Shown here one piece after another: positions 8,293-32,525 of a stretch of DNA of 64,000 nt. A model generated the notes under the pieces. That model was not told the DNA's origin. It saw only the letters and a program-made list of their open reading frames with translations, and did no database searches. The position numbers were made by a program, and so were the translations under genes. Numbering within the stretch: position 1 is the stretch's first letter; each line of letters opens with the position of its first letter. This DNA is from Desulfobacula toluolica Tol2 (GTDB taxonomy: Bacteria > Desulfobacterota > Desulfobacteria > Desulfobacterales > Desulfobacteraceae), in NCBI RefSeq assembly GCF_000307105.1, contig NC_018645.1, forward strand, positions 4,226,001 through 4,290,000, given 5' to 3'.

Positions 8293-10089
8293 ATGCCCCA
8301 GAACAACTTGCCCTTGACCGGGTTTGACGAAATGAACTTGAGCCCCCCTGTGTTTTCTGCATTGCAGGATGTGGGCTATGAAACTCCAACCCCGATCCAG
8401 GCAATGACCATCCCCCATCTGATCCGGAACAAAGATGTGCTGGGCCAGGCCCGGACCGGCACCGGCAAAACAGCCGCCTTTGCCCTGCCACTGCTATCCC
8501 GGATTGACCTTGACAACAAACGGCCCCAGGTATTGGTATTGACCCCCACCCGGGAACTGGCCATCCAGGTGGCAGAATCCTTTAAGACCTATGGTGCAAG
8601 AATGAAAGGGCTGAACGTATTGTCCGTTTACGGAGGACAAAGTTACGGAATTCAGCTGAACCAGCTCAAAAAAGGCGTCCATGTGGTCGTGGGAACACCC
8701 GGCCGGCTCATGGATCATATGCGAAAAAAAACCGTGTCATTTGCAGACCTTTTTTGTGTAATCCTGGATGAGGCAGATGAAATGCTTCACATGGGCTTTA
8801 TTGATGATGTGGAATGGATACTGGACAGAACGCCACCCGATTCACAAACCGCTCTTTTCTCAGCCACCATGCCCAGGCCAATCCAAAAGATTGCCCAAAA
8901 ATATCTTACATCACCGGAAGAATTTTTTATCAAACCGGACAACACGGAACTTAATACCATCAAACAGCAATACTGGATGGTCAATGGAGCTAAAAAAGCG
9001 CACGCCCTGACCCGTATACTGGAGGCTGTCTCCTTTGACGGGGTGATTGTGTTTGTTAAAACCAAAACCGCAACACTTGAGCTGGCAAAAATTCTTGAAG
9101 ACAAAGGATTCAAAGCCGAGGCCCTGAACGGGGATCTTGCCCAGAATGCAAGAGAACGAACCGTTAACCGGCTTAAAAACAGCCATATCGACATTCTGGT
9201 GGCAACTGATGTTGCGGCCAGGGGTCTTGATGTGGACCGAATCTCCCATGTAATTAATTATGATATGCCTTCCAAGGTTGACCCCTATGTCCACAGGATC
9301 GGCAGAACCGGCAGAGCCGGCCGGACAGGAGAAGCCATCCTGTTTGTTTCCCGAAATGAACGCTGGATGCTGAAAGTTATTGAAAAAGCCACAAAACAAA
9401 AAATTCAGGAAATCAGCCTGCCCTCCAACAAAACCATTAATAAGAAGAGAATAGCCGACTTTAAGCAGGCCATTACTCAAACCCTGGAATCAAAAGACCT
9501 GAATGTTTTTCAAGAACTGCTTGAAGGATATGCCCAGGAACAGGACATCCCTGTTGTACAGGTTGCAGCTGCCCTTGCGAAATTAGCCCATGGAGACAGC
9601 CCTTTCCTGTTGCCTGCGGATAAAGACAAAAAAACCGCAACAGCTAAGCCAGCCCGAAAAAAACAGGCTGCCCCGAAAAACATTTCAAATAACAGGAACA
9701 CGACAGAAAGAACAAACAAGCCGGGTAATACAGCAAGAAAACAAACACCCAAACCAATGAAAAAACAAACCTCCTCCCAAAAAGCAAATATTACTCCCAC
9801 AAAAGAAACAAACATTGCTCCCCAGGAACAAGCAAGTGTGCCACCCCTGGAAAAAGGCATGGAAAGATACCGAATTGAAGTGGGACGTCTCCACGGGGTC
9901 CAGGCTGGAAATATTGTCGGAGCCATTGCAAATGAAGCCGGTCTTGACAGCAAACACATCGGCCATATAAATATCAACCAGGATTTTTCCTTTGTGGATC
10001 TTCCATACGGTATGCCAAAAGAAATTTTCAGGCTCCTGAAAAGAACCTGGGTAAAATCCCAGCAAATGTCAATCTCAAAATGTGCCTGA
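8293..10089 (+). CDS. deaD: DEAD-box RNA helicase with DbpA-type C-terminal domain
   Basis: ATP-dependent RNA helicase of about 598 residues, acting on ribosome assembly or RNA decay in the cytoplasm. Motifs in order: Q motif (YETPTPIQ), Walker A ARTGTGKTAAF, PTRELAIQ, GTPGR, DEADEMLHMGF, SATMP, ATDVAARGLDVD and HRIGRTGRAG. A lysine-rich linker (about residues 445-530) is followed by a DbpA-like RNA-binding domain (MERYRIEVGRLHGVQAGNIVG). AAGGA is placed for the ATG at 8293; the frame extends upstream to a GTG at 8263 with no good site. A stem-loop terminator lies 40 bases after the stop. Confidence 0.94.
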   Translation: MPQNNLPLTGFDEMNLSPPVFSALQDVGYETPTPIQAMTIPHLIRNKDVLGQARTGTGKTAAFALPLLSRIDLDNKRPQVLVLTPTRELAIQVAESFKTYGARMKGLNVLSVYGGQSYGIQLNQLKKGVHVVVGTPGRLMDHMRKKTVSFADLFCVILDEADEMLHMGFIDDVEWILDRTPPDSQTALFSATMPRPIQKIAQKYLTSPEEFFIKPDNTELNTIKQQYWMVNGAKKAHALTRILEAVSFDGVIVFVKTKTATLELAKILEDKGFKAEALNGDLAQNARERTVNRLKNSHIDILVATDVAARGLDVDRISHVINYDMPSKVDPYVHRIGRTGRAGRTGEAILFVSRNERWMLKVIEKATKQKIQEISLPSNKTINKKRIADFKQAITQTLESKDLNVFQELLEGYAQEQDIPVVQVAAALAKLAHGDSPFLLPADKDKKTATAKPARKKQAAPKNISNNRNTTERTNKPGNTARKQTPKPMKKQTSSQKANITPTKETNIAPQEQASVPPLEKGMERYRIEVGRLHGVQAGNIVGAIANEAGLDSKHIGHININQDFSFVDLPYGMPKEIFRLLKRTWVKSQQMSISKCA

Positions 10090-10128
10090 AGAACCCTATC
10101 CGCATTATTGCACCCCTAAAAAAAACAG

Positions 10129-10165
10129 GAACAAGGACAATCCATTAAGGAATCTGTCCTTGTTC
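10129..10165 (+). terminator. Terminator-like stem-loop after deaD
   Basis: Inverted repeat GAACAAGGACA...TGTCCTTGTTC with a 15-base loop, 40 bases after the deaD stop. No long U-tract follows. The rest of the gap to 10364 is AT-rich, with nothing else recognised. Confidence 0.6.
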
Positions 10166-10364
10166 TACAGTCTGTTGACTTGGTTTTGTTATCAACTTTT
10201 CCCATAAGCAGGCCCCCTGCCCGTTTTTTTGCCGTCTTATAAAATAAAAAATTTAATTCATTATTGAAGCGTATACGAGATTTATGGTATCTAATAATTT
10301 ATAACTCTATCTTGTTTGTTCAGCAAAAAAAAAACAATCCCATAAACAATAAGGACGGTATGCC

Positions 10365-27635: not shown

Positions 27636-29348
27636 TTAAATTACAGCGGCCAGTAATCCCGTGGTAAGTAATGAAACTTCAATAACAAATTCTCGATGTG
27701 CCCCGGATATAATGCTATTGTTTTTAAAAAACTGTATCAATAAAAGCATGGCAAGGGGTATGAAAGCAAACCAGAACGCTCCACTTACCAATAAATCAGC
27801 AAAACATGCCGACACAATAAGAACTGTTTCAAAAATCAAAACATATTTTATAATAGCAAAACTTTTTTTTTCCCCTAAAAGAATGGGAAGCGTTTCTTTT
27901 CCGGTAATCCTGTCACCCTGAACAGCAAGAATATCAAAGAATGCCGTTCTTCCAAACACAAGACCTGCAGCGAACAAAAAAACCACTGCAACCGACCGCC
28001 AATCACTTTGATTTGCAAAAGCCGGCAAAAGACAGGTAACCATGCCCCATGCCATAACAATAAGAACTGTTTTTGAACCGGGAATATCTTTTATCCGGGC
28101 AAATTGCCTTTTTTTTGACACAAAAGGGATGATTTTCAAATTATAAGATAATCCCAAAAGACTCATAAACAGTAAAATAACAAAAGAAAACATACCGCTG
28201 ATAAAACTCAAATAAAGGCCGGTCGAACCTGATAAAATCGCAAAAGCACACAGAAACCACTGGTTTTTTTCATAAAAAACCGCCCGTTGGGGATGATTAT
28301 ATTTATCAGACTTAATAGTGAATAAATTGTTCAGGATCTGCATTGAAAGAACATACAGCATGGCTATCAAAGCGTGATCTAAATCTTGAGCAACCCCCTG
28401 GATCTTGGAACATGCGTAGGTCAGAAAACCGGCACCTGTTGCAGCCATTATATTGGTCTTCAGCAAAAAATCACGAATTAAGCATAAAAACGCTTTCAAG
28501 GGATGTTGTTGTTGAAAATGACTTTCTATTTCTCTGTATGTTTCATTAATAATCCAGTTGGGAGTCGATGCCCCGGCGGTAATAGCGATAGACCCAGCTG
28601 ATGACAATTCTCCATAATCAATCTGGGAAATATTTTCAATGCAGCTTACGGGCTTGCCTGTCAAAGATGCGATCTGTGCCAGCCTTTTTGTATTTCCGCT
28701 CTGTTTTCCGCCGACAACAACAATTGCATCATTTTTCTCGGCAAGGTTACGGATTTCAGCCTGACGTTTTTCAGTGGAGCCGCAAATGGTATCAAATATT
28801 TTATAATGGGGCAAATGGGTTTTACACCAGACTTTTATTTGATCAAAAAAAGCTGTATTTTGAGTGGTTTGAGCGACAACAACGGCAGATTCAAACCTGG
28901 GCAGTGCCAACAGCTGATCCATGGATGTGATTGTATGACCTTTTGCCTTTGCATATCCCAAAAGACCCACAACTTCAGGGTGTTTCTCATCTCCTATAAT
29001 GATTGTGGAATAACCTTTTTGAGCATATTTGCTAATAATCATCTGAACCTTCACCACCCTGGGACAGGTTGCATTAATAACAGTAAAACCCGCATCCCTA
29101 AGGGCTTTTTCATCCTCCGGCGGTACTCCGTGAGCCCGGATTAAAACAATACCGCTGCCTTTTTCCGGAATTTCATCAATCCTGAAAATCCGCTTTTCTT
29201 CAAGCATCTGCAACACCTGGGGATTATGAATCAAAGGGCCATAGGTATAAATCGGCTCCTTTGACATATTGGAAGCATCCAGCACCATATCCACAGCACG
29301 CCTGACCCCCATACAGAACCCGGCTGTTTTAGCCACACATATCTTCAT
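27636..29348 (-). CDS. ispH: IspH (HMB-PP reductase) fused to a UbiA-type prenyltransferase domain
   Basis: Residues 1 to about 285 are IspH, the 4Fe-4S enzyme that makes IPP and DMAPP in the last step of the MEP pathway. Its three cluster Cys lie in AGFCMGVRRAV, NATCPRV and ICGSTEKRQ. Residues about 295-570 form a multi-helix membrane domain of the UbiA family, with a clear second Asp motif (DILAVQGDRITGKETLP) and a divergent first motif (NNLFTIKSDKYNHP). IspH is normally about 280-320 residues and free-standing, so the fusion is unusual. The ATG overlaps the parB stop (ATGA), placing it third in a parA-parB operon. Confidence 0.9.
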   Translation of the reverse strand: MKICVAKTAGFCMGVRRAVDMVLDASNMSKEPIYTYGPLIHNPQVLQMLEEKRIFRIDEIPEKGSGIVLIRAHGVPPEDEKALRDAGFTVINATCPRVVKVQMIISKYAQKGYSTIIIGDEKHPEVVGLLGYAKAKGHTITSMDQLLALPRFESAVVVAQTTQNTAFFDQIKVWCKTHLPHYKIFDTICGSTEKRQAEIRNLAEKNDAIVVVGGKQSGNTKRLAQIASLTGKPVSCIENISQIDYGELSSAGSIAITAGASTPNWIINETYREIESHFQQQHPLKAFLCLIRDFLLKTNIMAATGAGFLTYACSKIQGVAQDLDHALIAMLYVLSMQILNNLFTIKSDKYNHPQRAVFYEKNQWFLCAFAILSGSTGLYLSFISGMFSFVILLFMSLLGLSYNLKIIPFVSKKRQFARIKDIPGSKTVLIVMAWGMVTCLLPAFANQSDWRSVAVVFLFAAGLVFGRTAFFDILAVQGDRITGKETLPILLGEKKSFAIIKYVLIFETVLIVSACFADLLVSGAFWFAFIPLAMLLLIQFFKNNSIISGAHREFVIEVSLLTTGLLAAVI

Positions 29349-31069: not shown

Positions 31070-31107
31070 AAAGCCTTGTACGGCAATTAAATTGCCGCAC
31101 AAGACTC
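31070..31107 (-). terminator. Rho-independent terminator of the HdrD-like gene
   Basis: On the minus strand, AGTCTTGTGCGGCAATT pairs with AATTGCCGTACAAGGCT (one mismatch), followed directly by seven T. It begins 30 bases after the stop of the selenoprotein gene. Confidence 0.85.
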
Positions 31108-31136: not shown

Positions 31137-32456
31137 TTACATGGCCGATTCCGGGTGAAATACATCCACATCTTTCAAATCATCACCAAGATACTCTCTT
31201 TCATTGGGACCCAGTATTCCCAGGGAAAGGTTTAAGAGTGTCCACAGATGTGTGGTTTGCCATGCATGATCATTGACTTCAGCCATATCATGCACCTGGG
31301 CATGACAATTATGGCAGGGCGTAATGCAGTACGAAGCTTTGGTTGCAAGGATCTGGTTGGCTTTGGTCTGCCCGTAAGCCCGCCGCTGCTCCTGGAAACC
31401 TGACTGGAGATACCCGCCCCCCCCGCCGCAGCAGAAATTATTGGAGCGGTTGGGTGTCATGTCAACAAAATTTTCCTCTCCCACAACCGCCTTGACAACA
31501 TATCTCAAATCTTCGGCAACCGGGTCGCCAAACGATTTTCTGACCAGCTGACAGGGATCTTGAACCGTGAACTTGATTTGTCTTTCCTTGTTCCAGTCCG
31601 AAGATGGCTTGAGTTTTCCATCCCTGATCCATTCGGCATAAAGTTGAATGATACTTTTGATTTCAAAATTGTAAGGTATATTGAATTTTTGCAATCCAGC
31701 CCGGACTGCGAAAAGTTCGTGACCTCACTCGGTGTTTAGCCAGACTTTGCAGCCCAGATCCTCCACTGCCTTTACCTTTGTCCGAACAATCTTTTCCCAG
31801 GATTCATCGTCTGCGGAAAACAGGCAATAATTTTCTGCTGCCCAGCCTTTAGTCCCATAGGTCCAGTCTGCACCTGCCAGGTGCATAATTTTCCACAGCG
31901 GAACCATTTCATCCGGTTCAGTCACAGGCTCTCTTGAGTTCTGGTTTAAAAAGTAATAGGCACCTTCCCTGTTTATGTCCGCCTTCATTTCAGCAAACTC
32001 AGGCTGTGATTCCTGGTACTCTTCAAGAACGTCTTCCACCACAAACTGGAAATCTTCTTCATTGGCACCCATTGCTGAACAAGTATCGTGTTTCAATGCC
32101 ATGTCACAAGAGCTTGTAATTCCTTTTGGCTTTTTATCTTTTGGCCATTGTGCCCTTGCATTGAAAACAAGCTGCGGAATATTAATCTGCATCGGACACA
32201 CATACATGCACCGTGTACACATGGAACACATCCACACCCAGTTCGTACTCAAGATTTCTTCATCCATTCCAAGCGCCGCCATTCTCAGGAACTTTCTTGG
32301 ATCCATACCGTCAAGGCCCGTTGCAGGACAACCAGATGCGCATGCACCGCATGTCAGGCATGCGTTCAGGTTTCCGCCATCCGGCAGAAGTTTCATTACC
32401 TTGTCTTTAAAGGCGCTCTTTCTTGCGCCTCCAATTTTAATAGCTGTATCTCCCAT
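31137..32456 (-). CDS. HdrD/TmcB-like iron-sulfur protein, probable selenoprotein (TGA recoded)
   Basis: Read through one in-frame TGA (31725-31727), the gene encodes 439 residues. N-terminus: two 4Fe-4S motifs (CLTCGACASGCP and CSMCTRCMYVCP). C-terminus: a CCG domain for a non-cubane cluster (DPC...FCCGGGGGYL...CITPCHNCH). The TGA stands in LNTE-TGA-GHELFAV, where relatives have Cys (ECGHE), and a SECIS-like hairpin follows. Frame and family motifs continue on both sides, so this is one gene and not two fragments. Such proteins pass electrons between thiol/disulfide or cofactor partners in anaerobic metabolism. It stands alone, with no Tmc, Dsr or Qmo partners beside it. AGGGGGA precedes the ATG. 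Confidence 0.85.
31686..31714 (-). promoter_or_regulatory. Bacterial SECIS-like hairpin after the in-frame TGA
   Basis: On the mRNA, UUUU starts 11 bases after the UGA, then a C·A mismatch and GCAGUCC pairing fully with GGAUUGC (one G·U) around the loop GGGCU. The loop lies 23-27 bases after UGA, and the lower stem is UUUU/AAAA. Position and a short G-containing apical loop fit what SelB recognises in bacteria. It lies entirely inside the coding sequence, as expected. Confidence 0.7.
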
Positions 32457-32469
32457 GCTATTGTTCCCC

Positions 32470-32525
32470 CTATTGATTCAGATCTGTTGATTTAAATCTA
32501 TTGATTCAAACCTGTTGATTCAATT
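32470..32525. repeat. Four tandem 14-bp repeats upstream of the selenoprotein gene
   Basis: Four consecutive units: CTATTGATTCAGAT, CTGTTGATTTAAAT, CTATTGATTCAAAC and CTGTTGATTCAATT. They start 14 bases upstream of the selenoprotein ATG and share TTGATTYA. They may be binding sites for a regulator or leader elements. They could also be simple slippage repeats. Confidence 0.7.

Follow-up and report, generated by a model that had tools for sequence, protein, structure and literature searches.

A TGA-interrupted HdrD-like gene of Desulfobacula toluolica Tol2 very probably encodes a selenoprotein of the GlpC Fe-S oxidoreductase family

In the available passages of the 2006 survey, Fe-S oxidoreductases (GlpC) were reported as a selenoprotein family with five members, three of which come from Syntrophobacter fumaroxidans, a bacterium carrying three five-gene operons composed of glpC, hdrA, frhD, frhG, and frhA (Zhang et al. 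2006, PMC1794560). The accessible parts of later papers list the family again in 2022 (PMC9312934) and, with the motif UGH and a function called largely uncharacterised, in a review of 2026 (PMC13188914), and they also report a selenocysteine (Sec)-containing hdrD4 in Desulfobacterium autotrophicum HRM2 (PMC2702500) and an Fe-S oxidoreductase among the selenoproteins of marine Deltaproteobacteria metagenome-assembled genomes (MAGs) related to Desulfobacula (PMC8318568). In this work, we analyzed a 64,000-nucleotide stretch of the Desulfobacula toluolica Tol2 genome (NC_018645.1, positions 4,226,001 to 4,290,000; hereafter the window), the genome being one contig of 5,197,905 bases. The window carries a gene for an HdrD-like protein in which, judging from the conservation among homologues and the presence of the machinery genes, an in-frame TGA (codon 244) is very probably read as selenocysteine, giving one intact protein of 439 residues. 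Considering the earlier reports on GlpC and hdrD4 selenoproteins, its assignment as a new member of a known selenoprotein family is well supported. The main features of the gene are as follows:

31137..32456, minus strand: the whole Sec-containing HdrD-like gene, 440 codons including the stop (439 residues with the TGA read through); homologues align over most of its length
31727-31725, minus strand: the internal TGA at codon 244 (T-E-U-G-H-E), very probably decoded as selenocysteine, with TGA or Cys in the homologue rows
31691..31709, minus strand: selenocysteine insertion sequence (SECIS) hairpin, predicted by folding and homologue conservation; 7-bp stem (31709-31703 with 31697-31691), 5-nt loop (31702-31698), conserved G at loop base 2
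32184..32369, minus strand: N-terminal HdrC-like 4Fe-4S dicluster, Fer4_8 (Pfam), residues 30-91, with 8 Cys invariant in the 47-row alignment A1
31293..31568, minus strand: second, intact CCG domain, PF02754 (Pfam, E 1.6e-11), residues 297-388

The likeness to the GlpC family (COG0247; PTHR43551), drawn by motif and by description from the accessible part of the literature, consists in the U-G-H motif, the Fe-S oxidoreductase architecture, and the occurrence in Deltaproteobacteria/Desulfobacterota. HdrD4 of D. autotrophicum HRM2, a heterodisulfide reductase subunit likened here by description only, as given in the available passages, is also reported to be Sec-containing and combines HdrC- and HdrB-homologous domains (PMC2702500). 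An earlier reading of the window (hereafter the original prediction) had called the protein HdrD/TmcB-like, which holds as a description of fold and similarity; the NCBIfam models of TmcB, HmcF, and DsrK are matched with E of 3e-42, 4e-44, and 4e-29, respectively. It does not hold as a class assignment, as the scores are far under the curated cut-offs (144.6 of 735 bits for TmcB, NF045724; 151 of 750 for HmcF, NF045711; 101.5 of 400 for DsrK, NF045796), and all three were rejected.

The minus-strand frame 32456..31137 contains a single internal TGA, followed by 195 sense codons and the TAA stop, exactly as the original prediction had described it. Pfam finds a 4Fe-4S dicluster 5' of the TGA and one CCG domain 3' of it, a combination which we take to be the architecture of COG0247. 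The two truncated open reading frames (ORFs) that gene callers had been expected to report are indeed obtained under the standard bacterial code (table 11), namely 32456..31725 (243 aa) and 31694..31137 (185 aa). The family is widespread (41 of 297 phylum genomes), and that code breaks the gene into two fragments. Whether such genes are annotated correctly bears on models of electron transfer in sulfate reducers. A survey of the window revealed 15 in-frame TGAs flanked on either side by 60 or more open codons; the TGA at codon 244 alone among them has over 160 such codons in both directions, and the hairpin following it is the most stable among the 14 of these 15 listed.

For the comparison of codon 244, a scan of genome contigs identified 202 loci encoding a relative, of which the best 80 were kept, and 297 genomes of the phylum were sampled, with close homologues defined by E of at most 1e-90. 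Such homologues were present in 41 genomes (59 matches, codon 244 being read in all of them), 37 of which have at least one TGA copy, the other four having Cys only. The best loci, the phylum matches, the distant relatives from the host genome, and second hits gave 149 rows, reduced to 142 after removal of second copies and identical rows. Across these distinct rows the codon is TGA in 125 and TGC/TGT in 17; no other codon occurs there. That all 142 rows have either TGA or Cys here, and never an unrelated residue or another stop, is the decisive evidence for selenocysteine, and it bears out the expectation that homologues would show Cys or Sec at this site. The following residues are similarly constrained, with G245 found in 140 rows and H246 in all 142. 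Additional stops were seen near the C-terminus of two rows, i.e., a TAG at residue 433 of L125 (Cys at 244) and a TGA at residue 434 of L068, whereas L121, initially listed with a TAG, shows TGA at 244 alone in its aligned residues 1-430. It is also worth adding that one locus (L052), besides a close homologue, holds a distant second relative (9162-10283, 35.6%) that likewise has TGA here, along with a hairpin whose register is shifted.

A TGA differs from TGC by a single base, so the codon might in principle be a Cys codon altered by a sequencing or assembly error. The chance of this is negligible, as independent assemblies already refute it: the same TGA occurs in the best match of all 80 loci kept as the best of the 202 (the closest named relative there being a Desulfobacula MAG with 95% protein identity), as well as in two paralogues of the host genome. 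Alternatively, the TGA might be a true stop, the gene being a pseudogene, encoding a truncated functional protein, or having its two halves translated separately, which would agree with the two ORFs called under table 11, the second of which could begin at a TTG. That start (31694) lies within the 3' arm of the hairpin, and a protein initiated there would thus miss the segment encoded by the stem and loop. Moreover, the median ratio of nonsynonymous to synonymous polymorphism (pN/pS), with 49 relatives sharing 75% identity or more taken for comparison, is 0.09 for the part before the TGA and 0.11 for the part after it, and by this measure purifying selection is acting on both halves of the gene. 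Taken with the recurrence of TGA at this codon in 125 distinct rows and with the conserved hairpin, this makes a true stop very improbable.

Bacterial SECIS elements are recognized as a conserved hairpin just downstream of the UGA, with a G near the start of the loop. With the T of the TGA numbered 1, the pairs of the hairpin run from 19-37 to 25-31 and enclose a loop of bases 26-30, i.e., the five-base loop 23-27 bases past the TGA that had been predicted. The six inner pairs (20-36 to 25-31) were scored in the family, while pair 19-37 is the seventh stem pair in the window sequence. All six are complete in 90 of 100 distinct Sec 42-mers compared with none of the 17 Cys rows, and loop base 27 is G in every one of the 100 Sec sequences. 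When bases 16-40 were folded freely, at least 5 pairs formed around base 27 in 100/100 Sec rows (mean -11.1 kcal/mol) vs. 8/17 Cys rows (mean -3.5 kcal/mol). With the 3' partner shifted 1 to 5 bases in either direction, no sequence was fully paired any longer, except for 12 at -5. Synonymous constraint, calculated over 332 codon columns in 103 Sec rows with identities of 60% or more, is strongest (ranks 1 to 4) at codons 251, 254, and 255 of the stem and codon 256 at its foot; elsewhere in the hairpin, codon 250 ranks 11th and loop codon 253 46th. In most rows, compensatory synonymous changes of the 3' arm track the 5' arm, the pairings being Val GTC with GGA CTG (97 rows), Thr ACC with GGG TTG (9), and Ile ATC with GGA TTG (5). 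With Gly-Leu held fixed, pairing is complete in 114 of 119 rows, as against a mean of 98.9 and a maximum of 103 in 2000 permutations.

The genome also possesses the machinery on which the original prediction had made its reading depend: selA, selB, selD (the match of the last one itself with an in-frame TGA), and a canonical tRNA-Sec were all found over the cut-off. The tRNA-Sec is the sole RF01852 match above the cut-off of 47 (76.5 bits, anticodon UCA, G73), the next match reaching 38.4 bits. In the proposed course of decoding, the ribosome would reach the UGA at codon 244, where the hairpin starting 15 bases past it would bind SelB carrying Sec-tRNA-Sec; Sec would then be inserted to give a single HdrD-like protein, in which a ferredoxin domain of the HdrC type is joined to two CCG domains arranged as in HdrB.

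Some observations detract from this picture and should be set beside it. The folding check of the minus-strand region downstream of the TGA recovered the hairpin (-12.9 kcal/mol for the window 44-mer, z = -1.99), but it is not extreme by energy alone, as 8 of 200 shuffles were equally good, which makes the energy by itself just suggestive. In 10 of the 100 Sec sequences at least one of the six pairs is broken, yet each of them folds a hairpin there, and the permutation control for the pairing of the arms ignores relatedness. Finally, SelB is present in 265 of the 297 phylum genomes, and its presence in the host is therefore necessary yet weakly informative.

A different decoding would be the reading of UGA as cysteine by a tRNA-Cys of the selC* type with a UCA anticodon. 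According to the accessible part of the published description, selC* tRNA-Cys, with anticodon GCA and sometimes UCA, is known in anaerobes, including Desulfobacterales (PMC7609411), and among ten regions analyzed, ARAGORN assigns GCA to four tRNA-Sec-like genes of other genomes that bear the family and UCA to a second such gene of a fifth genome. For the host this decoding has very little probability, given its single RF01852 match over the cut-off, with UCA and G73, and the presence of SelA, SelB, and SelD. These tRNA-Sec-like genes (GCA in four, UCA in one), present besides the usual one, occur in L176, L177, L178, L179, and L180 (genomes G127, G097, G182, G180, and G015, respectively), and those of G127, G097, and G182 lie immediately next to a second SelB-like gene; they fit the selC* tRNA-Cys as far as the available text describes it (PMC7609411). 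In the host genome, 8 of 16 FlpD/MvhD matches have an in-frame TGA (one of them two), so this genome is rich in selenoprotein candidates.

Selenocysteine at codon 244 raises the question of its place in the protein. The predicted model is structurally closest to mycobacterial EtfD (9ojn) and methanogen HdrB (5odc), with 18% identity to EtfD, from which it differs in having no membrane region and in its length (439 vs. 1042 aa). In a profile alignment to EtfD, Sec244 falls on Cys581, and this is the only ligand position of the first EtfD cluster that is kept: Cys503, Cys538, and Cys584 correspond to Ala166 (139/142 rows), Trp198 (142/142), and the variable residue 247, respectively. Only the second CCG domain retains all five Cys (302, 342, 343, 381, and 384), forming the predicted noncubane [4Fe-4S] site, and Pfam detects one CCG domain, whereas the HdrB catalytic type has two intact CCG sites. 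From the alignment and the model we infer that Sec244 is the one ligand position left in a degenerate first CCG domain, beside a single noncubane-cluster site. The original placement of Sec at the CCG site thus needs revision insofar as it is not a Cys of an intact CCG motif; what stands is that it takes the Cys position still left in the degenerate domain, with an invariant His two residues further on. This placement is weakened by its dependence on the EtfD profile alignment at 18% identity and on a cofactor-free model.

It may be proposed, with about an even chance of being right, that Sec acts as a lone redox-active selenol/selenolate at the single noncubane [4Fe-4S] cluster. The invariant His two residues after it is predicted to ligate this cluster of the second CCG domain, electrons would pass via the two N-terminal cubane clusters, and the reaction would be the reduction of a disulfide- or polysulfide-like acceptor, or electron transfer. 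The competing view, which concerns the mechanism and is weighed apart from Sec insertion, is that Sec is structural or ligates a cluster, e.g., completing the noncubane one, and is not a free selenol. This comes slightly less than even in probability: the available passages state that the equivalent Cys581 of EtfD ligates a linear [3Fe-4S] cluster (PMC13083937), residue 244 is Sec or Cys in 142/142 rows, and Cys211 (132/142) and Cys236 (122/142), which are common although not invariant, could still matter, whereas the non-Cys residues at the EtfD Cys503, Cys538, and Cys584 positions make a full first cluster unlikely. In the literature passages on the GlpC selenoprotein family, no mention was found of Sec beside a single noncubane cluster, and the position proposed for it here gives a concrete hypothesis for the job of selenium in a largely uncharacterised family.

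As for possible partners, an HdrA/MvhD bifurcating module is a likely candidate because many relatives adjoin HdrA-like and MvhD genes, as do the GlpC genes (hdrA and frhD, respectively) in the accessible reports. Among 130 TGA rows and 14 Cys rows (second copies included), HdrA-like neighbours accompany 51 and 10, respectively, and MvhD neighbours 40 and 9; these counts are rough, since contig ends often truncate the loci and the identity of some HdrA matches is only about 30%. In contrast, the window copy lies outside any hdrA-frhD-frhG-frhA operon, although the hdrA-frhD adjacency is, in those reports, the described context and is not required of every member. Given the solitary setting of this copy, next to parAB- and ispH-like genes, its partner would have to come from another locus.

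The host genome has four close members of the family, i.e., the gene described here, L082 (68%, TGA), L084 (55%, TGA), and L083 (62%, TGC). The Cys form L083 (L165, G000:C1:3379000-3390000) is followed by a 1041-aa HdrA-like protein (Fer4 and Pyr_redox_2) and then by FlpD (MvhD), while L084 (L166, G000:C1:1039500-1050500) is localized between an MTHFR-domain gene and a gene for a 1477-aa protein with HdrA-like domains; for L082, no HdrA-like or MvhD neighbour was found within about 5 kb. The distant relatives from the same genome (L085-L087, 27-31% identity) show E-C-x-H with Cys. A quick unrooted tree of 137 rows, with residue 244 masked and several Cys rows on long branches, requires at least six Sec/Cys changes, five of them forced by starred branches. 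Two Cys branches, L119 and L125 together with L127, fall inside a 75-row starred clade that otherwise has Sec throughout, which is best read as reversion from Sec to Cys, the direction being inferred. L119 keeps 3 of the 6 stem pairs, and its hairpin may be a decayed SECIS. In the passages available from the 2006 survey, two Cys to Sec and zero Sec to Cys events were counted among the five family members (PMC1794560). A tentative and rather unlikely scenario is that Sec replaced the second noncubane cluster of a heterodisulfide reductase, the cluster binding one (di)sulfide half and the selenol the other in a hybrid active site of Sec plus one cluster, that the protein works with HdrA/MvhD bifurcating modules, and that some lineages later exchanged Sec for Cys.

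Two further elements delimit the gene:

32464..32470, minus strand: likely ribosome-binding site GGGGGAA, 7 nt 5' of the ATG (by eye)
31071..31107, minus strand: terminator-like hairpin between the gene and the parA-like ORF (consensus match only)

On one side of the gene lies a divergent HrpA-like helicase ORF; on the other, beyond the terminator-like hairpin, come parA-, parB-, and ispH-like ORFs on the same strand (names given by eye). The position of that hairpin before the parA-like ORF suggests that the gene is probably monocistronic. Of the 27 best-ranked loci (L001-L027), 26, all except L022, have the parA-like gene downstream in the same orientation, thus the solitary position is conserved in near relatives. 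The IspH-like ORF (window 27636-29348, minus strand, 570 aa) has a long C-terminal part which, by eye from the translation, resembles a polytopic membrane protein, and it is possibly a fusion.
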